Assembly (NCBI GenBank): GCA_027037535.1
Contig: JALVZQ010000007.1
Coordinates: forward strand, 248,001 to 312,000
Origin: Acidilobaceae archaeon
GTDB lineage: Archaea > Thermoproteota > Thermoprotei_A > Sulfolobales > Acidilobaceae
Direction of reading: 5' to 3'
Length of the DNA stretch: 64,000 nucleotides
Positions 45,261-58,384 of the stretch are shown here, one piece after another. A model generated the notes under the pieces. That model was not told the DNA's origin. It made no database searches and worked only from the letters and a program-made list of their open reading frames with translations. Position 1 is the first letter of the stretch. The number at the start of each line of letters is the position of its first letter. The translations under genes were made by a program, and so were the position numbers.

Positions 45261-45809
45261 ATCCCTCGATAAGGGTAGAAGAGATCCATCAATAACCTCA
45301 TGATTTTCCTTTCTTAACATATTGTAAAGTCGGCCTCCTCGTAGCAAGCTCAACGACACAATGCACTCGTCTCCCCTACGATAAAGGCTCCACTCGTCTA
45401 GACTCACTGGTATGATATTGTATCGAGTGATTCTCTCAGCGAGCTCTATTGCCTTCCTGATGGAGGACGCGTGTCTCTCCTTGAATCTATGTGAAGGCCA
45501 ATAAACTATGACGGCTCTCCTACATTTGTTCCAGTCTATTACCCTAGCTAAGTGAAGAGAAAGTATCTCTACCGGGATAGGACCGTGAATCCTTACGTTT
45601 TTTCCGAGAAGAGCGTTCTTCACAGCTTCATAATGCCCACCCGGAGCGAGAGACAAGATAAACACATGTCCATTAGTAATATCGTCTACTTCTTCATAGC
45701 TCTGGGCTCTGGTCTCGACACCAGTTAAGGCCTGAACAATATATGCGAGATCATGAAGATCTCTTATACTGTCAGGGTTTCCAGGTCTATGCGCCAGGAG
45801 CACGATCAA
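45216..45809 (-). CDS. Putative sirohydrochlorin chelatase-like protein (CbiX/SirB-type, divergent)
   Basis: The 197-residue protein shows two similar halves. The first has VLLAHRPGNPDSIRDLHDLA and ILSLAPGGHYEAVKNAL; the second has VIVYWPSHRFKERHASSI and IVSLSLLRGGRLYNML. This mimics the duplicated class II chelatase fold, where His near the N-terminus (His7) and His59 would be catalytic; in the second half His107 is kept but the other position is Arg. It lies inside the heme locus on the opposite strand, the only cluster gene able to supply the missing iron insertion. The start is TTG. Assignment by pattern and context, not certain. Confidence 0.55.
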   Translation of the reverse strand: MIVLLAHRPGNPDSIRDLHDLAYIVQALTGVETRAQSYEEVDDITNGHVFILSLAPGGHYEAVKNALLGKNVRIHGPIPVEILSLHLARVIDWNKCRRAVIVYWPSHRFKERHASSIRKAIELAERITRYNIIPVSLDEWSLYRRGDECIVSLSLLRGGRLYNMLRKENHEVIDGSLLPLSRDLLAVWITDMVRYNF

Positions 45810-45860
45810 CTACAAGTGCACCGTGGTCTCTTGCTGTCTACGTCTCGGCGATAATAGGAC

Positions 45861-45897
45861 GCATACTTACATGTAAATACGCGTAAGATAAGCGTAT
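45861..45897. promoter_or_regulatory. Palindromic operator-like sites between the chelatase candidate and hemA
   Basis: Positions 45861-45882 form an imperfect palindrome (18 of 22 positions match the reverse complement; the four mismatches are all transitions) centred on the perfect core TTACATGTAA (45867-45876). A second inverted repeat, ATACGC with GCGTAT, spans 45877-45897. A TATA-like AAGTATAATTA follows at about 45900-45910. The gap 45810-45939 is the divergent promoter of hemA and the chelatase candidate. A dimeric regulator could bind here; no regulator is identified. Confidence 0.5.
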
Positions 45898-45939
45898 ACA
45901 AGTATAATTACTCATCGTGAATAATCACCAGGCCCAATT

Positions 45940-47091
45940 ATGGAAGCGGGTCTAAACGGAATGATCGCTGACAATCCGCTCAATACTCTCGTCGCAGTTT
46001 ATACGTCTCATAAGGAATCAAGCCTTGATGCTATCGGAAGACTCGGAGAGCTAAAAGAAAAAGCATATGGACTCATAGACGCGCAAGGAATAGTTATCCT
46101 GTCAACATGCAATAGGTTCGAGGCCTATCTAGACAATCACCGAGACGTAGCGCCACTAGTAGAACTAATAGAGAGTACGGGCGGAGAACCAAGAATAATA
46201 ACCGGCCCAGAGGCAGCCCTTAGACTCTTTAGAATCGCAGCAGGCCTAGAGTCCCAGATCATAGGCGAGCACGAGATACTTGGCCAGATTAGAAGAGCAT
46301 TGAACGAGGCCCGATCCCAAGGAAGGGTCACACGGCTCCTAGACACTGTGTTCCGAAGCGCGATTATGGTTGGTAGAAGAGTCCGCAACGAGACAGGGAT
46401 AGGAGAAGGAGGAGCAGGATATCCATATGCAGCCGTTAGACTTGCTAAGACTCTGTCGGGAGAGGATCTAGGAAGAGTTCTCATAATAGGCTCTGGGAAG
46501 GTTTCCCAGCGGATACTCTATCTTATATGCGATGAGGCATCGGAAATAGTTGTCGCGTCTCGGAGTCTCTCGAGGGCAGAAAAAGTCTCATCCCATTGCA
46601 GGAATGCGAAGCCAATAGAGCTCGATGAACTAGTCGGCGCCTATAATGTAGTGTTTATAGCCGTGACAGGATATAGACCAGACCTAACGAGGATCAAGGC
46701 TGTGACAATCATAGATCTCTCGATTCCCCCTGTGACAGTAAAAGCAAGTGGTGTTTATCACCTAGAGGATCTGAGAGACGTACTCCAGGAGTCGATCCGA
46801 TACCGTGCTAAATGGATCCCTGCGGCTGAGAAGATTATAGGAGAGGAGCTAGAGAATCTAGTCCATAAGCTTATAGAGGCACAGGTATCCACGGCGGCGA
46901 AGACCATCCTGGAATATGGTGAGAGACTACTAGACCAGTTCCCGGTCAATGGTGATAGAAGGATACTTGAGCGATATATGAGGAGTCTTCTTCACCCACT
47001 CCTTGTCTCCCTTAGGAGAGCCTCGAGGGAGGCTTCTTCCTTCGATGATTTTGTAAAAATTCTTGTCGAAGAATATGGTGGAGGAACATGA
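45940..47091 (+). CDS. hemA: Glutamyl-tRNA reductase
   Basis: The 383-residue protein has the catalytic Cys57 in ILSTCNRFEAY, the signature AAGLESQIIGEHEILGQI, and the NADPH-binding VLIIGSGKVSQ. It reduces glutamyl-tRNA to glutamate 1-semialdehyde, the first step of the C5 tetrapyrrole route. It begins the six-gene run hemA-hemB-hemL-hemC-cobA-hemD. The hemB ATG overlaps its stop as ATGA. A palindromic site lies upstream, so the operon may be controlled by heme or iron status. Confidence 0.95.
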   Translation: MEAGLNGMIADNPLNTLVAVYTSHKESSLDAIGRLGELKEKAYGLIDAQGIVILSTCNRFEAYLDNHRDVAPLVELIESTGGEPRIITGPEAALRLFRIAAGLESQIIGEHEILGQIRRALNEARSQGRVTRLLDTVFRSAIMVGRRVRNETGIGEGGAGYPYAAVRLAKTLSGEDLGRVLIIGSGKVSQRILYLICDEASEIVVASRSLSRAEKVSSHCRNAKPIELDELVGAYNVVFIAVTGYRPDLTRIKAVTIIDLSIPPVTVKASGVYHLEDLRDVLQESIRYRAKWIPAAEKIIGEELENLVHKLIEAQVSTAAKTILEYGERLLDQFPVNGDRRILERYMRSLLHPLLVSLRRASREASSFDDFVKILVEEYGGGT

Positions 47092-48101
47092 TCAAGCTCC
47101 CTAGATTTCCGGTAATGAGGCCTAGACGTCTTAGGGTGTCTCCCGCCATACGTAGTCTTGTGAGAGACGTTTATGTCTTGCCGAGCGACTTTGTGCTCCC
47201 TGTATTCGTTGATGAGAGGATAACGACGCCTAAGCCGATAAAGTCGCTTCCCGGACACCAATATTATCCTCCTCGCTCGAGCGAACTAGTAACCTTGATA
47301 CAGGAAGCAATGGATCTTGGCGTAAAGGCCTTCCTGTTATTCGGTGTACCGAATCGAAAAGATATGGAGGCTACAAGAGCATATGCCAGGGATGGCCCTG
47401 TCCAGGAAGCCATCAGGAACATAAGAAAAGAGACGGGCTGGGAACCTGTCCTAATAACGGATCTCTGTATATGTGGATATTCTAGTCATGGACACTGCGG
47501 GGTACCAGTAGATTGTAGACGTGGTAAATGCATAGATAATGACCGCACATTAGAGCTATACAAGAGAATCGCTGTTTCACAGGCAGAAGCAGGAGCCGAC
47601 ATCATAGCGCCGAGCGGTATGATGGATGGACAAGTAGCCGCTATAAGAAGCGCATTAGACGACAACGGATACAGTGATGTGGGTATCATGTCTTATAGCG
47701 TAAAGTACGCTAGTAGCTTCTATGGCCCCTTCCGCGACGTTATGGATAGCAGTCCCCGATGGGGAGACCGTTCAACATACCAAATGGATCCAAGCTACAC
47801 CAGGGACATCCTAAAGGAGGCATTGATGGATGTAGAGGAGGGAGCCGATATACTGATGGTGAAGCCAGCACTACCCTACCTGGACGTAATCTATAGACTG
47901 CACACAAGTATACCGACGCATCCACTAGCCGCATATAATGTTAGCGGAGAATACAACATGATAAGACTCCTAGCAGAGGAGGGTCTAGGCCTCTATGAGG
48001 ATCTCGTCCTGGAGGTTCTCTCCTCTATCAAGCGGGCGGGAGCCGATGTAATCATAACGTACCATGCCCTAGAGGCGTCCAAGTATCTCGAAAACAGGTG
48101 A
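47088..48101 (+). CDS. hemB: Delta-aminolevulinic acid dehydratase (porphobilinogen synthase)
   Basis: The 337-residue protein has the zinc cysteine site DLCICGYSSHGHCG (Cys127, 129, 137) and two active-site lysines, Lys206 in SYSVKYASSFYGP and Lys259 in ILMVKPALPYLD. It joins two aminolevulinates into porphobilinogen. The presence of three cysteines indicates a zinc-dependent enzyme. It overlaps hemA by 4 bases, and its own stop overlaps a GTG of hemL. Confidence 0.95.
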   Translation: MIKLPRFPVMRPRRLRVSPAIRSLVRDVYVLPSDFVLPVFVDERITTPKPIKSLPGHQYYPPRSSELVTLIQEAMDLGVKAFLLFGVPNRKDMEATRAYARDGPVQEAIRNIRKETGWEPVLITDLCICGYSSHGHCGVPVDCRRGKCIDNDRTLELYKRIAVSQAEAGADIIAPSGMMDGQVAAIRSALDDNGYSDVGIMSYSVKYASSFYGPFRDVMDSSPRWGDRSTYQMDPSYTRDILKEALMDVEEGADILMVKPALPYLDVIYRLHTSIPTHPLAAYNVSGEYNMIRLLAEEGLGLYEDLVLEVLSSIKRAGADVIITYHALEASKYLENR

Positions 48102-48106
48102 TTCTC

Positions 48107-49384
48107 ATGACGAACAAGGAGAAGCTTCTAAACAGGGCAAAAGAGGTCCTGGTGGGCGGAGTAAACAGTCCGATCCGTGCGCTTACCAAGCCAGAACAAC
48201 TAATAGCGGTCAAGGGCCAAGGCCCATATATCTATGACGAATCACTGGGCAAACTAGTAGACTACGTCCTCGGATACGGTCCACTAATCCTCGGCCACGC
48301 ACACCCAGATGTAAAGAAAGCAATAATTGAAGCCCTTGAAAACGGATGGCTGTATGGGGCTACTAGTCCACTAGATATCCGGCTTGCAGAGAAAATACTC
48401 ACACACGTGTATCCAGGAGGAAAAATACGTTTCGTGAACAGTGGAACAGAGGCAACAATGCTAGCACTAAGACTAGCGCGAGCGTACACTGGCCGGAACC
48501 TCATAGTTAAATTCGATGGCTGTTATCACGGAGCTCACGATTATCTTCTTGTATCTGCTGGAAGCGCCGCAGGTCATCTGGGAGTGCCAAAGAGCCCTGG
48601 CATACCATCAGAGGTTTCCAGGCTAACACTCATAGCAGAGTACAATGATCCAGGCGGGCTAGAGGAGATATTCTCGAAGTACGGAGACCATATAGCAGGA
48701 GTAATAGTAGAACCAGTAATAGGTAATTACGGAGTTATACCGCCGAGCAAGGAGTTTTTACTCAAACTGAGGAAACTAACGGAAACATACGGAGCGGTAC
48801 TTATCTTCGACGAAGTAATAACAGGGTTCAGATTATCCCTTGGAGGGGCACAAGAGTACTTCGGTATAAGAGCAGATCTGGTGACATTAGGTAAGATTAT
48901 TGGAGGAGGCCTCCCCATCGGGGCCGTGGCAGGCCGTCGCGAGATAATGGATCTAATCACCCCTGTGGGCAAAGTATTCAATGCAGGGACTTTTAACGGC
49001 CATCCACTAGCAATGGCCGCTGGGCTAGCAACAATCAGGGTTCTCGAGAAGGAAGGACTAGGCAGAGCAGTCAATCATGCAAGGGCATTAGATGATATAA
49101 TAAGGGAGACTCTAGACTTGGCGGGCATAGCATATGCTGTGAATAGGATTGGACCAATGATGCAGTTTTATCTAGGAGTAGAGAACGTTGAGAAGCCTTC
49201 TGATATCCTGCCTCAAAGCAAGGACCTCTATACAAGAATCCACGAAGAGATGACGCGCCACGGAGTACTCATAGCGCCCAGCCAGCTCGAAGCACTCTTT
49301 ACAAGCATAGTTCATGGAGACAACGAAGCAGAACTCTTCCACCAAGCATACAATAACGCCGTCAGGAGGGTACTCAAAGGATGA
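48107..49384 (+). CDS. hemL: Glutamate-1-semialdehyde 2,1-aminomutase
   Basis: The protein has 425 residues from ATG 48107, after GGTGAT; a GTG at 48098 overlapping the hemB stop is the other possible start. It is a class III PLP aminotransferase with RFVNSGTEATMLALRLARA, IFDEVITGFR and the PLP Lys266 in LGKIIGGGLPIG, numbering from the GTG. It isomerises glutamate 1-semialdehyde to 5-aminolevulinate. The stop overlaps the hemC ATG as ATGA. Confidence 0.95.
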   Translation: MTNKEKLLNRAKEVLVGGVNSPIRALTKPEQLIAVKGQGPYIYDESLGKLVDYVLGYGPLILGHAHPDVKKAIIEALENGWLYGATSPLDIRLAEKILTHVYPGGKIRFVNSGTEATMLALRLARAYTGRNLIVKFDGCYHGAHDYLLVSAGSAAGHLGVPKSPGIPSEVSRLTLIAEYNDPGGLEEIFSKYGDHIAGVIVEPVIGNYGVIPPSKEFLLKLRKLTETYGAVLIFDEVITGFRLSLGGAQEYFGIRADLVTLGKIIGGGLPIGAVAGRREIMDLITPVGKVFNAGTFNGHPLAMAAGLATIRVLEKEGLGRAVNHARALDDIIRETLDLAGIAYAVNRIGPMMQFYLGVENVEKPSDILPQSKDLYTRIHEEMTRHGVLIAPSQLEALFTSIVHGDNEAELFHQAYNNAVRRVLKG

Positions 49385-50262
49385 AACTGGTAGTCGCAGC
49401 AAGAACAAGCAAGCTGAGCCGAATACAGGTTGAAATAGCTTTAGACTACATAGCTAAGAAACTAGGCAACATAACATACCAGTTCCTAGGAGTAAAAACC
49501 ACAGGCGACATAGTCAAGGACAAGCCACTCCACCTAATCGGCAAAAAAGGAGTATTCGAGAAAGAGGTAAACAACGCAGTACTCGGGGGAGAAGCCGACA
49601 TAGCAGTCCACAGTCTAAAAGACCTACCCTCGAAGCTACCAAACGGCCTGGAAATAGTCCTAATACCTCCCAGAGGCCCCAGAGAAGACTCACTAGTACC
49701 ACGTAAAGAACTTTCCCCAACGAGGCCGAGCGACCTACCAAAGGGTACACGCGTAGCCGCAGGATCTCCTAGAAGGCAGGGAATGCTATATCACGCAAAC
49801 CCAAACATTGAGACAGTATGGATAAGAGGTAACCTGGATACCAGGCTCAGGAAACTAGACAACGGACAAGCAGACTACCTTGTAGTAGCCGAAGCCGGCC
49901 TCACACGCCTAGGAATCTCCAGGCCGAGGATCATTCTCCCAGCCGTGAAGTACGTGCCAGCACCAGGCCAAGGCCTGATAGCAGTTGTAGCAGTTTCAGA
50001 GACAAGTATTGCAAGAAAGCTGAAAGAAATAACACATACTCCCACGACACTAGAGGCGATAGCCGAAAGAACATTTCTAGAGTCCATAAAAACAGGATGC
50101 GGTGCCCCCATAGGGGCAACAGCATGGTACAATAATGGTAGTATCAAAATCATATCAGCGAACTATGATGTGAACCTCGAGAAACCACTCTACATAACGA
50201 TAACACACAATGATCCCGTAGAGGCCGGGAAACAGGCAGCAAGTCTCCTCAGGGAGGCGTAA
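49381..50262 (+). CDS. hemC: Porphobilinogen deaminase (hydroxymethylbilane synthase)
   Basis: The 293-residue protein carries HSLKDLPS with the catalytic Asp81, the substrate Arg segment AGSPRRQGML, and Cys240 in IKTGCGAPIGATAW, which attaches the dipyrromethane cofactor. It polymerises four porphobilinogens into hydroxymethylbilane. Length is normal. The start overlaps hemL by 4 bases and a 2-base gap leads to cobA. The coding strand is markedly A/C-rich. Confidence 0.95.
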   Translation: MKLVVAARTSKLSRIQVEIALDYIAKKLGNITYQFLGVKTTGDIVKDKPLHLIGKKGVFEKEVNNAVLGGEADIAVHSLKDLPSKLPNGLEIVLIPPRGPREDSLVPRKELSPTRPSDLPKGTRVAAGSPRRQGMLYHANPNIETVWIRGNLDTRLRKLDNGQADYLVVAEAGLTRLGISRPRIILPAVKYVPAPGQGLIAVVAVSETSIARKLKEITHTPTTLEAIAERTFLESIKTGCGAPIGATAWYNNGSIKIISANYDVNLEKPLYITITHNDPVEAGKQAASLLREA

Positions 50263-50264
50263 AC

Positions 50265-51005
50265 ATGCCAGGCACAGTCTACATTATTGGAGCTGGGCCA
50301 GGAGACCCCGACCTAATAACACTGAAAGCACTCAAAGTAATCAAAGAAGCAGACACGATACTCTATGACCGACTAGTCAGCCCAGAAGTCCTAGAACACG
50401 CTAAGCCAGGCGCAGAACTAATATACGTCGGGAAAGCGCCAGGAAATCATGAATTTACGCAGAAAGAAATAAACAAGCTGCTCTATGCCAAAGCGCTAAC
50501 AGCTAGAACAGTCGCTCGACTCCACGGGGGAGATCCTTTATTCTATGGTCGAGGAGAAGAAGAATGCCTCTATCTAATAACTAGAAGAATAAGATGTAAG
50601 ATAATTCCCGGTGTTCCATCACCATTCGGAGCGGCTGCAGAACACCTTATACCGCTGGCAGGAAGAGACATCGCTAGCAACGTATTATTCTCTACGGGTA
50701 CATTTAAGGGAGGAACAAAGATCTCCGTCGAGGAGGCAATGAACATTATTCGGGCTTCACACCACTCAGTATTCCTAATGGCTACCTCATCGTACAAGAA
50801 TATTGTTAAAGCATCAATAATAGCCAAAGGCCCAGACACTGCAGTAGCCGTAGTAGAAAAAGCCACAACTCCTGAGTCAAGACTCGTCATCGGTAAGTTG
50901 CAAGAATTACTAGGAAATGAATGGATTCCATCACCGCCCGCAATCATATTCGTCGGAGGAGGCCCCAGATGGCGCCTAGAGAAAATAAATGCACAGTACT
51001 ATTAG
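50265..51005 (+). CDS. cobA: Uroporphyrinogen-III C-methyltransferase
   Basis: The 246-residue protein has the SAM-binding start VYIIGAGPGDPDLITLKAL, LYDRLVSPEVLEHA and the loop RLHGGDPLFYGRGEEE typical of SUMT. It methylates uroporphyrinogen III twice to precorrin-2, the branch point for siroheme and Ahb heme. GGGAGG lies 7 bases before the ATG. Its end overlaps hemD by 37 bases. It is a monofunctional methyltransferase, with the dehydrogenase encoded separately at 44577-45260. Confidence 0.93.
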   Translation: MPGTVYIIGAGPGDPDLITLKALKVIKEADTILYDRLVSPEVLEHAKPGAELIYVGKAPGNHEFTQKEINKLLYAKALTARTVARLHGGDPLFYGRGEEECLYLITRRIRCKIIPGVPSPFGAAAEHLIPLAGRDIASNVLFSTGTFKGGTKISVEEAMNIIRASHHSVFLMATSSYKNIVKASIIAKGPDTAVAVVEKATTPESRLVIGKLQELLGNEWIPSPPAIIFVGGGPRWRLEKINAQYY

Positions 51006-51736
51006 CAGGCCCCGATCCACCACCAAGCAAGCTAGGGCCCTGCACAACCATTTGGGTTCCCCTAATAGAAACGCATACTGTGAAAAGATCATCTCTAATA
51101 CTCCTAAATATTATTAATCAATACGACACTGTACTTTTCACCAGTCCAAGAACGCCACGACACCTGAAGGAAGACGCAGAAACACATAACAAGATAAGAG
51201 AACTCAAAGAAGCACTAACGAGCAAAAACATTTGGAGTATTGGGCCTAGAACAAAAAAGTCCCTAGAAAAACATTTGGGATTAAACTCGAACACTCCCAA
51301 AGAATACAACACAATAGCTCTAGCATACGAGCTCAGAAACAGGGGAGTAAAGAACGTTCTGGCTCTACGTAGGCCGGGAGCAGGCCCAGAACTCGCTGAC
51401 ATAATAACAAGGTGGGCGACATATACCGAGCTACACATCTATCGAGTCAAGCTAGACGAATTTTGGCAATATAAGGTCGCAGGAATCCACGTAGATTACG
51501 TCGCAGTAACAAGTAGGCAAATAGGAGATTACGTTGCAAAAATGAACTGGACCTCAAAGCCCGCTATAGTATCTATTGGATCGTTAACAACTAAGAGACT
51601 GGAGAAACATGGTATAAAGCCCCTCTGTACAGCCAATATATACACGTTGGAAGGACTCGCAATCTGCCTCGAATCCCTCGAGTCAGAGAAAACGGGTAAA
51701 CGGCCCAGGCCTGGAGGAGAAAGATATGGAGGCTGA
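50969..51736 (+). CDS. hemD: Uroporphyrinogen-III synthase (divergent)
   Basis: The ATG at 50969 is preferred over 50921 because GGAGGAGG precedes it, giving 255 residues. HemD is poorly conserved, but the domain order, TVLFTSPRTPRHLKED in domain 1 and VDYVAVTSRQIGDYV then IGSLTTKRLEKHGIKPLCTA in domain 2, matches the two-lobed synthase. It closes hydroxymethylbilane into uroporphyrinogen III. Context after hemC and cobA supports the assignment. Its last 11 bases overlap the PhoU-like gene. Confidence 0.83.
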   Translation: MAPRENKCTVLLAGPDPPPSKLGPCTTIWVPLIETHTVKRSSLILLNIINQYDTVLFTSPRTPRHLKEDAETHNKIRELKEALTSKNIWSIGPRTKKSLEKHLGLNSNTPKEYNTIALAYELRNRGVKNVLALRRPGAGPELADIITRWATYTELHIYRVKLDEFWQYKVAGIHVDYVAVTSRQIGDYVAKMNWTSKPAIVSIGSLTTKRLEKHGIKPLCTANIYTLEGLAICLESLESEKTGKRPRPGGERYGG

Positions 51737-52685
51737 AATAAGAAAACTCCAGAAATTGGGATCAGGAAGCATAGTAGTTACACTCCCCAAACACTGGGCA
51801 CAAAGGCTAGGTCTCGAACCAGGAAAAAACGTTATGCTCATCAACGAGGATGACGCTATTAGAATTTTACCACTCGAAAAATCGGAGATAAGTGAATGCA
51901 TCCTCGATTTAAAGAATACGAATCCTCATCTTGCCCTCGGAGTCCCTATTTGCACGTATCTATCCGGTTTAAAGAAGGTCACGGTAAAGCTACCGCCAGG
52001 AGGAGAAGACCTAGTTCTCCCCCTAGTTGAGCGAGCAATGAACTTTGTAGGCCTCCAAGTATATCACCAGTCACGGGGAGAAGTCAGGATAGAGGTCCTA
52101 CTAGACCATGACAAAATAGATCATATAAAACTAATACGGAACATGGGATCCGTCCTCCAAGCCCTAACAAAACAAATAGCAGAAGCCCTAGAAACAGGTA
52201 AAACGAGCATGGAAAAAGCCAAAATATACAGACGTGAGCTCCTACGAGAACTCTACATGGCGATAAGATACGTATTATCAACCCACAAACAAGCCCAAAA
52301 CATAATAACAAAAGAGCTAACAGCCCTCACAGCCAGCTACCTAGGCCTAGTAGTTGACCTACTCTACGAGACACTCGAAACAATAACCAATACAAGCCTA
52401 CCAATAACAGAAAACGATAAGCAAAGAATAGCCCAGATATATCATGCATTATCAGACACCAGCCTACTCTTCATACTAACCATAGCCAATCCAACACAAT
52501 CAAAAGTAACAAAACTAACCCAAAGCATCCACCAGATAAAAAACACGATCCAACAAATGATAGATACCTTAGAAAGCCCAATGGGAGGACTACTAGCCGG
52601 AAGACTACAAGATGTAATAAGAGTACTAACTTTAACAGTTTACATACTTACATGTAGGGCTCTATTTGAGAAAAATCGTTTATAA
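51726..52685 (+). CDS. AbrB-PhoU-type regulator
   Basis: The 319-residue protein has an N-terminal SpoVT/AbrB-like DNA-binding domain (LGSGSIVVTLPKHWAQRLGL, residues 11-30) and two PhoU-like helical repeats (about residues 115-300) rich in Leu, Ile and Thr. Such archaeal proteins are annotated as phosphate uptake regulators, though their DNA targets are mostly unknown. It is the last gene of the heme operon, overlapping hemD, so it may couple heme synthesis to a regulatory signal. The line 52501-52560 has 49 A+C of 60, an extreme case. Confidence 0.82.
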   Translation: MEAEIRKLQKLGSGSIVVTLPKHWAQRLGLEPGKNVMLINEDDAIRILPLEKSEISECILDLKNTNPHLALGVPICTYLSGLKKVTVKLPPGGEDLVLPLVERAMNFVGLQVYHQSRGEVRIEVLLDHDKIDHIKLIRNMGSVLQALTKQIAEALETGKTSMEKAKIYRRELLRELYMAIRYVLSTHKQAQNIITKELTALTASYLGLVVDLLYETLETITNTSLPITENDKQRIAQIYHALSDTSLLFILTIANPTQSKVTKLTQSIHQIKNTIQQMIDTLESPMGGLLAGRLQDVIRVLTLTVYILTCRALFEKNRL

Positions 52686-52748
52686 TATTTAATTATACAC
52701 AATGATATTAGGGATATATTGCTTACACCAAAAGATGAGGACGATAAG

Positions 52749-53552
52749 ATGATACGTATAAAAACAATTTTAGATTCATATAAAATAGTCGGTCCAAAAC
52801 TCTTATTAAAAGAAGCAATAAGAAGGATTTTTGGAATAAGATACTCTTATAATGGAATAGTTGTTAATGATTTGAGAACATTCCGTATAATAAAAAATGC
52901 AATGAAGAATGGATATGTCATAACTTCTATCGATGGAAATTGTGTATTGATTACTGACTATGGTAAACTAGTAGTTCCCAAACAAAAATGCAGTTTATTT
53001 TCTATATCTGCAGTCGAGAATTTCAGCAGGCTATATGGAAGATTAAATGCAAAATCCAGAATAGTATTAGATGTTGGAGGATACATAGGTGATACGGCGT
53101 TATATTTCTTGAATAACGGTGCAAGATTAGTTATAGTATACGAACCCGTAAAAGATTTGTTTAAATTATTATTAAACAACATAGAATTGAATAATGTTTC
53201 AGAAAGAGTTGTCGCTATAAATGCGGGAGTTTGGATAAAGGACGGCACTATCGTTTTACCGGCTGAAGAATCATACATTAAAACAGTATCATGGCAAAGT
53301 GTTATAAAAAACGTTTCTCAGTATGGGAATAATATAGTTGCAAAAATTGATTGTGAAGGATGTGAGTATGGACTTATAGGAGTTTCTTGTAAGGATCTGA
53401 TGATATTAGACGAATATATTATAGAGATACACGGAAAAAGTGGTCCATTGGTTATGAAATTTACGGACTGCGGTTTTGAAGCTGAAAAAGTTGAAACTAT
53501 AAACGCATGTACTTCTATATGGTATTTTAAAAGTAATGTTACTAGGTCGTAA
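52749..53552 (+). CDS. FkbM-family methyltransferase
   Basis: From ATG 52749, with GAGG 8 bases upstream, the protein has 267 residues; a TTG at 52719 would add ten. It has the FkbM SAM-binding pattern IVLDVGGYIGDTALYF, then VYEPVKDLFKLLLNN and KIDCEGCEYGLI. These enzymes methylate sugars or glycan chains. It is AT-rich (16 G+C in the 60 bases 52861-52920), unlike the preceding heme operon, suggesting transfer. No other glycan gene is adjacent. Confidence 0.8.
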   Translation: MIRIKTILDSYKIVGPKLLLKEAIRRIFGIRYSYNGIVVNDLRTFRIIKNAMKNGYVITSIDGNCVLITDYGKLVVPKQKCSLFSISAVENFSRLYGRLNAKSRIVLDVGGYIGDTALYFLNNGARLVIVYEPVKDLFKLLLNNIELNNVSERVVAINAGVWIKDGTIVLPAEESYIKTVSWQSVIKNVSQYGNNIVAKIDCEGCEYGLIGVSCKDLMILDEYIIEIHGKSGPLVMKFTDCGFEAEKVETINACTSIWYFKSNVTRS

Positions 53553-53659
53553 ATTTTTAATCATAATCTAAGACGCTATCCTGTAAAATTGGTGCATAAC
53601 TATGATATCGCGCTAATTATAATAAAAATATAAAACAATAATATAGTATATAGTAGTTT

Positions 53660-54424
53660 TTAGTCATACATTATGTCGATACCTATCTTTTCTAGTGTGC
53701 TAAGCCATTTGAGAAACATTGATACTGTTGGTCCCTGAAATATCGCACCGTGCTGGGGGGCCAGTACTTCTATATTAAGATCCTTGACTCGTGATAGCCA
53801 GTAATCTAGTGCTTTTTTACAGCATAGATAGCGTTTGTGGAATCCTTCTATATATGCTAAGTGTTTGTCGAAGTTATCTACGAATAAGTACCATTCGTCT
53901 TTCGGAAAGACAGCAGCTCCAATATCTCCGCTGAACAGGACTCTAAGATTATGATCATATAGGGTGAAATTACCGGGTGAGTGTAAGAAGTGGGCAGGTA
54001 CGGCTTCCAGATTTACTCCACCAATTTCTATAATATTTCCATTGTCAGGTATTTCTATAATATTAAGATCTGCTATTGCTCCTAGATGTGGGAGGAATCT
54101 TGTCCAGAGTGCTGAGATGTAAATATTAGCGTTTGGGAAGAAATCTAGTAAAAGATTTATTGATCCTACTACGTCAGGATCTTGATGACTATAAAATATT
54201 GCTTTTACTTTTGATGGATCGAGATACTTGCTTACGGCCTCGAGTACTTTTTGGAAAACGAAATATCCGCCAGGATCTAAAAGAATACCTTCACCATTAT
54301 GAACTATAAGATATTGATTAGTTAGGATGCCTTTCTCAGCATCGGCTTCGTCCAGGCCAAGCCATATAAATTTATGATTTTCGTTGCCAACAACCACAAG
54401 AGGTCTATGAAGTTTACGAACCAT
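53660..54424 (-). CDS. Metallo-beta-lactamase-fold diiron (ODP-like) protein
   Basis: The 254-residue protein resembles the diiron core of flavodiiron proteins without a flavodoxin domain, and the ODP oxygen-sensing domain. Ligand motifs are SHQDPDVVGS (His, Asp, Asp), HFLHSPGNF, SGDIGA and PQHGAI, in the expected order. The usual E/D-H pair is replaced by D-V, as in ODP proteins. It probably binds oxygen or NO at a diiron site. It overlaps the upstream unknown gene by one base (TAATG), so the two act together. The pair lies in an AT-rich region. Confidence 0.8.
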   Translation of the reverse strand: MVRKLHRPLVVVGNENHKFIWLGLDEADAEKGILTNQYLIVHNGEGILLDPGGYFVFQKVLEAVSKYLDPSKVKAIFYSHQDPDVVGSINLLLDFFPNANIYISALWTRFLPHLGAIADLNIIEIPDNGNIIEIGGVNLEAVPAHFLHSPGNFTLYDHNLRVLFSGDIGAAVFPKDEWYLFVDNFDKHLAYIEGFHKRYLCCKKALDYWLSRVKDLNIEVLAPQHGAIFQGPTVSMFLKWLSTLEKIGIDIMYD

Positions 54425-55176
54425 TACTCTATCGCCTCCGGACTATGTAAGAATGAACCATATATTTTGACCCTATATAAACCTTCGATCTTATTGAGCG
54501 CAGTAGGATCTTCTAGTAATTCATCTCCCGAAATAATAGCATAGGTTCCGGCTAGTTGACCATTAATAAATAGTAGTCTGAAGCTTCCGTTACCACTACC
54601 TGAAACGTAAACTACCTTATACTTATTAAAAATTCCTTGGCTATGGAGGTCTTCAATAAACTTATTAAACTCTCCTTTAATTATGCTTACATCCATAGTC
54701 TTAACTAGCATTGACTTCATTAGAAGCTTTGAAATCCAAGAAATATCTGCTAGTTTCCGTGAAAAATCTCTAGCGGTAGTTTGCTTTAGATTTCTGGCAT
54801 TAACTGAATGATTTACAGCATGTTCTAAGATAGAATAGGCTAGGTTCCTTAACTTAGGCCATACTATACGTTTTCGCGGACCAGTATAGTCAGCGAACAA
54901 TAGTATCTTGTTAGTATAGATCTTATACAATAATTTAATCGTGCTAGCATCGCCTTTAAGTGTAATTACAATCTCGTTATCGGTGCTATGCTCGATTGAT
55001 ATTTCATAAGTATCTTCGAATTTAAAAAAGAATCTTTTGAACATCAATCGTAATTTATCATTAAATAATCCTACAACATATGGAATACTTGGAAGTAGAT
55101 TGTTCTTTTCTTTGAGGTATGTTATAAGATTTTCTTTATCAAATTCTTTCTGGAGTTCGCCTATTTTCTTAATCAA
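54424..55176 (-). CDS. Unknown protein paired with the diiron protein
   Basis: The 250-residue protein has a helical N-terminal half and a beta-rich C-terminal end, including SGSGNGSFRLLFINGQLAG and a following strand region. I do not recognise the family. The TTG start has GAGGGAG 7 bases upstream, and a TATA-like AAATTATATAATG lies near 55238-55250 on the minus strand. Tight coupling to the diiron protein suggests a partner, target or output of that sensor or enzyme. AT-rich. Confidence 0.65.
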   Translation of the reverse strand: MIKKIGELQKEFDKENLITYLKEKNNLLPSIPYVVGLFNDKLRLMFKRFFFKFEDTYEISIEHSTDNEIVITLKGDASTIKLLYKIYTNKILLFADYTGPRKRIVWPKLRNLAYSILEHAVNHSVNARNLKQTTARDFSRKLADISWISKLLMKSMLVKTMDVSIIKGEFNKFIEDLHSQGIFNKYKVVYVSGSGNGSFRLLFINGQLAGTYAIISGDELLEDPTALNKIEGLYRVKIYGSFLHSPEAIE

Positions 55177-55709
55177 ATAGTTCTCCCTCTTTCTTCTTTT
55201 GTTTTAGATACCCAACTATATTTCTTGTGAGTATGTTCATTATATAATTTGGTTTTAGAAAATAAGTATAGTCATCTAGAACTAATCATTTGAAATATTT
55301 ATTATAACAATATTATTTTATGTTGCTTTGGTTCTAATAGGATATTGTAAGAATTTCGTCATGTTTAATATTTATTATTTATATATACATGATTTGTTAC
55401 CAGTATTACATTATTTAAATAAAAATAATCATTGTAACTATAAAATTATGTATAGAACATGCTTTTAGTACTATAGAATTAATAGATCTTTACAATTATG
55501 TTTAGTATCCAGATAACTTGAGCAAGAGCAGGACTACATAATATTATATAATATATTATTATAATTGGAAACAAATAGAGAGCCTACGTTTATAGGTAAT
55601 TTGGATTTCTATAAAAACATTAAAATATTTTTAACTGTCTTGTTAGCATCTTTTATATTTCGTTATGATCTAATACACCTACTTGGCGTCTAGATTGCTG
55701 TGTTCATCG
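55177..55709. other. Non-coding AT-rich gap
   Basis: No open frame of useful length and no RNA gene is seen in these 533 bases. The right part includes runs such as TATTATATAATATATTATTA. The left part holds the probable promoter of the 54424-55176 gene. It may be leftover sequence from an integrated element, given the integrase remnant at 56436, but nothing in it proves that. Confidence 0.5.
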
Positions 55710-56096: not shown

Positions 56097-56435
56097 TATT
56101 ACATATACAAGAATAGGGACGCCGACGGATCCGAAATAAAAGATGATAAGAGCTAGCGCTTCAGTACGGTTAAGACGTTATTGCTCAAATCCGATCCTTT
56201 TTCTCTTAATCCGAAATCCTAAACTACAATGAAGAGTATATTATAAATATCTATAAATATTATTTTAATCGGTGAGCTTCGAAGCGTCCTAATCGGGTAA
56301 TCAAGAATCTGCAAAATAAACAAGAAGAGGTGGACGAGGTAATATATTTTATGGTTGTTTTTGTTTGGAATTTCCACGCTCTACTATATGTAATGTTATG
56401 CGGGGTGAGCCTCTAAAACGACAAATGTTCCAACG
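56097..56435. other. Non-coding gap before the integrase remnant
   Basis: About 340 bases without a supported gene. One plus-strand frame from about 56277 reads 46 codons without a stop (including VIKNLQNKQEEVDEV) but lacks a ribosome site or recognised motif, and may be decayed coding sequence. The rest is AT-rich. Confidence 0.45.
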
Positions 56436-56703
56436 TTGGAAAAGGGACAGGAGTTGGGAGTAAACTACTATCTGAGAGAGAAGAATGGCAGAGTATACCT
56501 CTACATGGTTATATGTAAGAATAACAGATGCAGGCAGGAGAACATAGCAAACGTTGAAGCACTCCATACAATAGCAAAATGGTTCAAATACCGGTGACTA
56601 CACCTAGACAAACGCACAGCCGAAAAAATACTAGAACAAGTCCTAAACCGCAACTGCCCACCATGCAAGGAAATGAAGAGTAGGAGCCCCGCATCTGTTT
56701 GTG
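56436..56703 (+). pseudogene. Decayed N-terminal fragment, int(N), of an SSV-type integrase
   Basis: From TTG 56436 the frame reads GVNYYLREKNGRVYLYMV, then ICKNNRC and LHTIAKWFKYR, stops at TGA 56595-56597, and continues in the same frame (LHLDKRTAEKILEQVL, NCPPCKE) straight into the antisense of tRNA-Arg, giving GPGGFEPPTTGLGG. SSV1 integrase has the same order: a Y-x-L-R-E-x-x-G-R-x-Y-x-Y strand pair, a short helical linker, then a tRNA-derived PGFEPGTSG segment. Integration of such elements leaves int(N) overlapping the tRNA. The TGA makes it a remnant. The catalytic domain is absent. Confidence 0.7.
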
Positions 56704-56781
56704 TGGCGGGCCCGGGGGGATTTGAACCCCCGACCACTGGCTTAGGAGGCCAGCGCTCTGTCCTGGCTGAGCTACGGGCCC
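56704..56781 (-). tRNA. tRNA-Arg (anticodon CCU)
   Basis: The minus strand from 56781 folds as a complete cloverleaf: acceptor GGGCCCG paired with CGGGCCC, D stem GCTC/GAGC, anticodon stem CTGGC/GCCAG with loop CTCCTAA, and T arm GGGGG-TTCAAAT-CCCCC. The anticodon CCT reads AGG, a common Arg codon here. The discriminator is G and CCA (56704-56706) is encoded. No intron is seen. An SSV-type integrase remnant overlaps it from the 3' side. Confidence 0.96.
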
Positions 56782-57010
56782 TTCTATCGGTGCCCGTTGT
56801 TGTTTCCTTCTTATTGGTTTTTGTTGTGCAGGTTTTAAAGGTTATTTTTGATTCTTGTTTTATTGTTGGCTAACGTATTGTCGTGATAATATTAACATAG
56901 AATTATTCTATTATAATGTTGGACATTAAAGTGATCTGTAATTTTTTGTAATACCACGGGCAGTATTTTTATAGGGGTAATGGATGTGTTTGTAATCAGG
57001 GTGTAAACCT

Positions 57011-58384
57011 TTGGCAGAGAATAGTATTCTCGAGAGGCTGTTTCACATCTCCAAGCGTGGATCAAGCATACGTAAAGAAGTAATTGCTGGCCTTACGACG
57101 TTTATGACAATGGCGTATATCTTGTTCGTGAACCCGGCTATTCTTGGAGCCGCTGGAATGCCAAAGGACGGGGTAGTTGCAGCCACTGCCTTGTCAGCAG
57201 CGATAGCAACTATAATAATGGGTCTCCTCGCTAATGCTCCATATGCCCTCGCACCAGGTATGGGTCTAAACGCCTACTTCGCATTCACTGTAGTACCCTT
57301 CACGGCGGCGGTTCTTGCAACGAAGGGTATAGATGGAGTAGAACCTTGGCAGATCGCGCTTGGAGCAGTCCTCGTTGAAGGAATCGTGTTCATAATACTA
57401 TCGCTGACACAGGTCAGAAGCGCAGTAGCAAACGCCATACCTATGAACTTAAAATATAGTATAGCAGCCGGAATTGGACTTTTCTTGACTCTTATTGGAT
57501 TCGCCGATGCAGGAATCATTAGACCCTCAAGTTTTGCTATCGAGTTTAACACCCAGGCGTTTACAGAGCCCGCTCCACTCCTTGCAATACTCTTTACATT
57601 ACTTGCAGGTGCATTAATGGCCCTGAGGGTCCCCGGAGCACTACTCATTTCGATAATCACGGCAATGCTCGTTGGATGGATAGGAAACGTAAGCAATCCC
57701 CCAGAAGCAATCTTAAGCACACCGTCGTTCTCGGCAGCCTTTAAAGCAGATATATCCGGACTATTAGACCTAGGTATAGCGGCTGCGGTAGCAATAGTAT
57801 TCACGTTCTTCATAGTAGACTTCTTCGACACCCTTGGAACAGTAACAGGATTGTCCGCTATGGCAGGACTGATGAAGAAGAACGGGGAAATAGAGAACCT
57901 AGATAAAATGCTGTTATCCGACGCTATAGGAACAACGGTAGGAGCCGTACTAGGGACCAGCACTGTCACCACATATATTGAGAGTGCTGCGGGAGTAGAG
58001 GAAGGAGGTAGAACCGGTCTAACCGCTATTGTCGTAGGTATACTATTCCTCCTAGGACTTGTATTCACACCAGTATTCACGGCTACACCAGCCTACGCAA
58101 CGGCGCCAGCACTAATAATAGTAGGACTACTCATGGCCTCGACAATAAATAAGATCGAGCTAAAAGACCCTACAGAGTCGCTTCCAGCATTTTTAACAAT
58201 AGCAGGGATACCATTCACGTTCAGCATAGCGGACGGTATGGCTCTAGGATTCATAAGCTATGTATTCCTGAAAATAGCGACTGGCAGATGGAGAGAGCTC
58301 AACCCAATACTAGTAATAGTAGCACTAATATTCCTAGTATACTTCGTGAGCCTTCCACGAATACATGCAAGCATAACAGGCTAA
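57011..58384 (+). CDS. Purine permease (AzgA/PbuG-type, NCS2 superfamily)
   Basis: The 457-residue protein has about 13 membrane helices and family motifs FMTMAYILFVNPAILGAAGM, LAPGMGLNAYFAF and FFDTLGTVTG, with TTYIESAAGVEEGGRTGLTA later. It most resembles guanine/hypoxanthine permeases, importing purine bases with protons. The start is TTG, with GGGTG about 7 bases upstream. It is monocistronic, between the tRNA and an ABC exporter. Strong A/C codon bias in its second half. Confidence 0.9.
   Translation: MAENSILERLFHISKRGSSIRKEVIAGLTTFMTMAYILFVNPAILGAAGMPKDGVVAATALSAAIATIIMGLLANAPYALAPGMGLNAYFAFTVVPFTAAVLATKGIDGVEPWQIALGAVLVEGIVFIILSLTQVRSAVANAIPMNLKYSIAAGIGLFLTLIGFADAGIIRPSSFAIEFNTQAFTEPAPLLAILFTLLAGALMALRVPGALLISIITAMLVGWIGNVSNPPEAILSTPSFSAAFKADISGLLDLGIAAAVAIVFTFFIVDFFDTLGTVTGLSAMAGLMKKNGEIENLDKMLLSDAIGTTVGAVLGTSTVTTYIESAAGVEEGGRTGLTAIVVGILFLLGLVFTPVFTATPAYATAPALIIVGLLMASTINKIELKDPTESLPAFLTIAGIPFTFSIADGMALGFISYVFLKIATGRWRELNPILVIVALIFLVYFVSLPRIHASITG

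Follow-up and report, generated by a model that had tools for sequence, protein, structure and literature searches.

The question raised by this locus is what the interrupted reading frame that runs into a tRNA gene once was, and what became of the DNA that brought it there. The window, as the whole stretch of 64,000 nucleotides analysed here is called, comes from the genome of an Acidilobaceae archaeon (G000) and contains a single tRNA gene, an intact tRNA-Arg with anticodon CCT. SSV-type suicidal integration has been characterised mainly in Sulfolobales and Thermococcales. The locus is very probably what a vanished element left behind, the orphan int(N) of such an integrase, a suicidal tyrosine recombinase acting at tRNA-Arg(CCU). 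PMC8371274, which cites She et al. 2002, reviews SSV1-type integrases and the int(N) and int(C) pseudogenes belonging to integrated elements.

The frame lies on the plus strand from 56436 to 56703, continues in phase into the antisense of tRNA-Arg(CCU) and stays open throughout the tRNA. Read from the TTG at 56436 it gives LEKGQELGVNYYLREKNGRVYLYMVICKNNRCRQENIANVEALHTIAKWFKYR*LHLDKRTAEKILEQVLNRNCPPCKEMKSRSPASVCVAGPGGFEPPTTG, with one TGA as its sole interruption, and so agrees with the decayed frame, broken at 56595, that the original prediction had described from the letters. The TTG is probably the true start, since its column in the alignment of relatives holds TTG or ATG. Upstream lies a conserved block with a TATA-like stretch, likely the int promoter, degenerate in the window. 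An uninterrupted full-length integrase frame is lacking, both because of the TGA and because the catalytic part is absent from the window locus; a C-terminal tyrosine-recombinase catalytic domain was found in the relatives only.

The coding frame of int(N) runs on into an att that has the same sequence as the tRNA 3' half. This core is present once in the genome and shows no difference from the core of the relative G035 and a difference of one base from that of the relative G159. Directly 3' of the tRNA, the frame crosses a trailer-like sequence whose TAGGAGCCC motif also stands 3' of tRNA-Arg(CCU) in relatives lacking an int(N). The motif AGGAGCCC follows tRNA-Arg(CCU) in many int(N)-free members of the family, and the window, G038 and G035 have it at the end where int(N) lies; from this, the tRNA trailer seems to travel with the elements together with the 3' half. 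The features are collected in Table 1.

Table 1. Features of the tRNA-Arg(CCU) locus, in positions of the window, and of the two elements elsewhere in the same genome, in positions of their contigs.
Feature	Position	Strand	Remark
Orphan membrane protein gene, 128 aa	55710..56096	-	Only gene in the interval between 55279 and int(N)
GGAATTTCCACGC block and TATA-like stretch, upstream of int(N)	56367..56389	+	Conserved in the relatives' alignment
int(N): SSV-type integrase, N-terminal coding part as far as the tRNA	56436..56703	+	TGA-interrupted
N-domain core GVNYYLREKNGRVYLY...NVEALHTI, common to fuselloviral integrase N-termini	56457..56573	+	hhalign
In-frame TGA	56595..56597	+	Sense codon at this column in the uninterrupted frames of G036 and G029
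Trailer-like TAGGAGCCCCGCATCT..., directly 3' of the tRNA	56681..56703	.	int(N) frame gives ..RSPASVCV..
tRNA-Arg(CCU), attachment gene	56704..56781	-	tRNA call
Inferred att core, covering the tRNA 3' half as far as the anticodon loop	56704..56748	.	Equals the 45-bp core duplicated in G035
SSV-type elements in tRNA-Leu	G000:C8:224924-235445 (L149); G000:C7:28400-40311 (L150)		int(N), int(C), duplicated att

A terminal GPGGFEPPTTG arises from any such tRNA and by itself proves nothing. The tRNA-derived part was removed before the profile tests, the profile of the relatives' N-domains was built without the window, and 500 shuffles served as the control for each test. Against the relatives' profile the window N-domain scores 79.1 bits, a value reached by none of the 500 shuffles, whose maximum is 6.4. 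The same domain scores 17.6 bits against a profile of fusellovirus N-domains, again beyond all 500 shuffles, and a profile-profile comparison with hhalign aligns 36 columns with an E value of 1.1e-6 and a probability of 91%. The original prediction of an SSV-type int(N) is thus borne out by fuselloviral homology that lies outside the tRNA-derived part. When the test is reversed, the relatives' profile gives the N-domains of SSV1, SSV2, SSV7, SSVK1, ASV1, SSVRH and pXZ1 11.5 to 18.9 bits (0 of 500 shuffles). The SMF1 N-domain was not significant against the relatives' profile, nor were the relatives G038, G035 and G042 against the fusellovirus profile.

These scores bear on the possibility that a chance open frame simply joins the ordinary GGFEPPTTG of any tRNA-Arg antisense. 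The tRNA-derived part alone does match many unrelated tRNA loci, but the N-domain stripped of it far exceeds its shuffles and its identity to the frame of G036 reaches far upstream of the tRNA, which leaves a coincidence of this kind with next to no probability. Identification of the fragment as an int(N) draws on its relatives and on profile comparison. Scanned directly, the fragment matches neither a Pfam family nor an integrase family of PHROGs, tblastn against phage and plasmid records gave chance or tRNA matches only, scans of viral contigs gave no relatives, and a scan of genome contigs gave matches to the tRNA-derived end only. The int(N) profile picks up scars and elements that escape ordinary family searches.

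A family-wide search found an uninterrupted frame in G036 that is 52% identical to the fragment over residues 6-102 and overlaps tRNA-Arg(CCU). In the family, frames run into tRNA-Arg(CCU) in G036, G038, G035, G008 and G028 and into tRNA-Gly in G029 (two frames) and G033; a profile search at the level of the order adds tRNA-Ser(GCU) in G019 and G016, tRNA-Gly(CCC) in G042 and tRNA-Arg(CCU) in G159. Another frame found by profile, at tRNA-Gly(CCC) in G182, begins like the N-terminus of the SSV1 integrase. A frame on contig C85 of G038 was considered as a second int(N) of that genome and rejected, being membrane transporter-like and then followed by a tRNA-like end.

Two subtypes of int(N) can be told apart. 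The long subtype of the window, G036 and G029 carries an extra stretch before the tRNA part, G038 has the short subtype, and the window and G038 match well only over the last ~29 bases before the tRNA. Because these close genomes carry different subtypes at the same tRNA, the tRNA-Arg(CCU) site has probably been struck at least twice in this genus. The same comparison weighs on the idea that int(N) has been kept as a small functional gene for a domesticated DNA-binding protein or regulator, instead of being a scar. Such a gene would fit the recurrence, in several genomes, of int(N) frames that have no interruption and a conserved block upstream. The window copy, however, has a stop in mid-frame, the presence of two int(N) types at one tRNA in G000 and G038 fits repeated integration and not a conserved host gene, and G037 has the same tRNA-permease locus with no int(N) at all. 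Domestication is therefore highly improbable, and the frame is better read as what an integrated element left behind.

What such an element looks like when it is in place can be seen in the relatives. In G159, on a single contig, int(N) lies at tRNA-Arg(CCU) and int(C) at the opposite end of the element, and each end carries the tRNA 3' half as an exact core of 45 bp, the two cores lying 15,069 bp apart; this core, TGGCGGGCCC...CTTAGGAG, terminates in the anticodon loop. In G035 the two halves are on separate contigs, with one and the same core preceding int(C) on C25 and following int(N) on C54. Such an arrangement is the one described for SSV-type, suicidal integrases. The int(C) of G035 matches PF16795 (1.9e-9) and that of G159 the integrase family phrog_5127 (1.2e-14). 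A matching int(C) behind a second core is thus present in both relatives and absent from the window's own genome. Comparison of the locus in relatives, which the original prediction had proposed, accordingly yielded a complete element in G159 and both integrase halves in G035.

In G038 (contig C205) and G035 (C54), 7-10 kb of small genes, mostly on the same strand, lie upstream of int(N). A phrog_9634 nuclease is common to the elements of G035, G038 and G159, and nucleases of Sulfolobus spindle-shaped viruses match the G038 copy weakly. The integrated elements are accordingly spindle-virus-like or plasmid-like; of the proteins scanned, none belonged to a fusellovirus coat protein family. The element of G159 (contig C1, L153), about 15 kb long at tRNA-Arg(CCU), holds many uncharacterised genes in addition to an SSV-like nuclease and is possibly an undescribed provirus.

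The window, in contrast, retains one half only. No int(C) and no second tRNA 3' end lie within its 64 kb, as the original prediction had noticed, and the search for a matching int(C) and tRNA-Arg 3' half that it proposed for the whole genome found none on the 8 contigs of the assembly (1.65 Mb, 99.94% complete). The G035 int(C) matched G000 only through the tRNA part at the locus itself, so that a tRNA-Arg-type int(C) was not found. Even with up to 3 mismatches allowed, the core has no second copy outside other tRNA genes and tRNA-like sites, and a 23-mer of the core recurs exactly only in a tRNA-Met. The window int(N) is called an orphan because the int(C) for this site is absent from its own genome.

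The same genome provided a positive control. It holds two complete SSV-type elements, of about 10.4 and 11.8 kb, in tRNA-Leu(UAA) and tRNA-Leu(CAA). Their int(N) frames match N-terminal positions of phrog_5127 (2e-6 and 5e-5), and one element encodes an SSV DnaA-like replication protein (E 3e-35). The int(C) of the two elements were considered as partners of the tRNA-Arg int(N) and rejected, because the att cores that go with them are tRNA-Leu and an int(N) of its own accompanies each. The two int(C) are 95% identical, the cargo is otherwise mostly different, and a PriX-type primase occurs in one of the elements, as the SSV DnaA-like protein does in one.

Could the tRNA-Arg element still be in the genome, with its int(C) and second att in an assembly gap or moved away by rearrangement? 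The assembly does consist of 8 contigs, and both halves were retained for the two tRNA-Leu elements; yet the nearly complete genome has neither a tRNA-Arg-type int(C) nor a second core, and the DNA left of int(N) is chromosomal by 55.28 kb, so no large element adjoins the scar. Persistence of the element is on this evidence improbable, and the small chance that int(C) falls into a gap is the remaining doubt about its loss. Occupied sites in relatives and the want of a cognate int(C) in G000 agree instead with integration followed by loss, as originally proposed.

The extent of what the element left is narrower than first supposed. The AT-rich stretch from 52.7 to 56.4 kb had been suggested as its residue, and most of this suggestion does not hold. 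The sister genome G038 aligns to the window at 45575-52656 (94%), 53627-55279 (87%), 56347-56476 (73%) and 56675-57908 (89%), and the homologue of 53627-55279 directly adjoins the PhoU-like gene in G038. Within this segment a pair of genes, ODP and a hypothetical gene (53660-55176), is also found in G041, G016 and G037. These genes are chromosomal, because they align in G038 and the pair recurs elsewhere, and 53.63-55.28 kb was rejected as element residue. Any residue is limited to about 55.3-56.7 kb at most, and left of int(N) it could occupy 55.28-56.44 kb. The G038 contig ends at the homologue of 55279, where the left junction is expected, and for this reason the beginning of the G038 element is placed somewhere between that point and int(N). 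The membrane protein gene in the corresponding interval of the window has its sole relative, among the family genomes searched, in G019 (63%). That relative adjoins a winged-helix gene, which is related, at 26% over 201 residues and E 2.8e-10, to a winged-helix gene in the element of G035. The membrane protein gene may be element residue, which is a lead and not a result. Between the PhoU-like and ODP genes lies an FkbM-like methyltransferase gene (52719-53552) with a GC content of about 30-33%. It is missing at that place in G038, is unconnected with the tRNA, and is a separate insertion or loss beside the ODP pair.

From these observations we infer recombination steps and an order of loss and decay for an element whose exact nature is likewise a reconstruction. 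A small circular element, virus-like or plasmid-like, would have carried attP inside its own SSV-type integrase gene; this attP would have copied the 3' half of the tRNA, which extends from the anticodon loop to the 3' end. When the element recombined with the tRNA, the gene would have been cut, joining int(N) to the regenerated tRNA and placing int(C) at the far end of the element. In the window lineage the rest of the element, including int(C) and the second att copy, would later have been deleted or rearranged away, and int(N) would have acquired its nonsense codon.

Comparison with known systems places the locus among familiar ones. Like the SSV1-type systems of Fuselloviridae, it has a homologous N-domain and an overlap with the tRNA 3' half from the anticodon loop, with the gene split into int(N) and int(C) in its relatives and a core of 45 bp, against 44 bp for the annotated SSV1 integration site. 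Unlike them, the window retains int(N) only, with a stop codon and with neither int(C) nor a second att, and SSV integrases do not have the extra stretch of the long subtype. The G159 element shares the tRNA, a related int(N) and nearly the same core, but is complete and belongs to another family of the same order. In Aeropyrum pernix, split-integrase proviruses are flanked by direct repeats and parts of the split integrase gene (PMC4158269); by this description they are alike, but they are complete and inducible, whereas the window has a scar only. Integrases of the pNOB8 type are also archaeal tyrosine recombinases acting at tRNA genes, but classical pNOB8-type integration leaves the gene unsplit (PMC8371274), and the window fragment is of the split kind.

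That the locus is an ordinary scar of a known process is therefore well supported. Its interest lies in the repetition, one tRNA-Arg(CCU) gene having been a recurrent target of SSV-type suicidal integration in the window's family, and in the small natural series for element loss that results: a complete element in G159, of another family, occupied sites in G035 and G038, a scar in the window and no int(N) in G037. Sister genomes bear two int(N) subtypes on the same tRNA end, trailer included, and because of this integrase N-domains might be regarded as exchangeable modules, an orphan int(N) being reusable by a later element to give a chimeric integrase. This idea varies a recombination model that PMC8371274 discusses for integrases of the suicidal kind; it is speculative, and we think it unlikely. 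The two subtypes also differ in their cysteines: the long int(N) of the window and G036 has a CX4C and a CX2C pair, which could bind metal, while the core of the short int(N) of G035 and G038 has the CX4C pair only.
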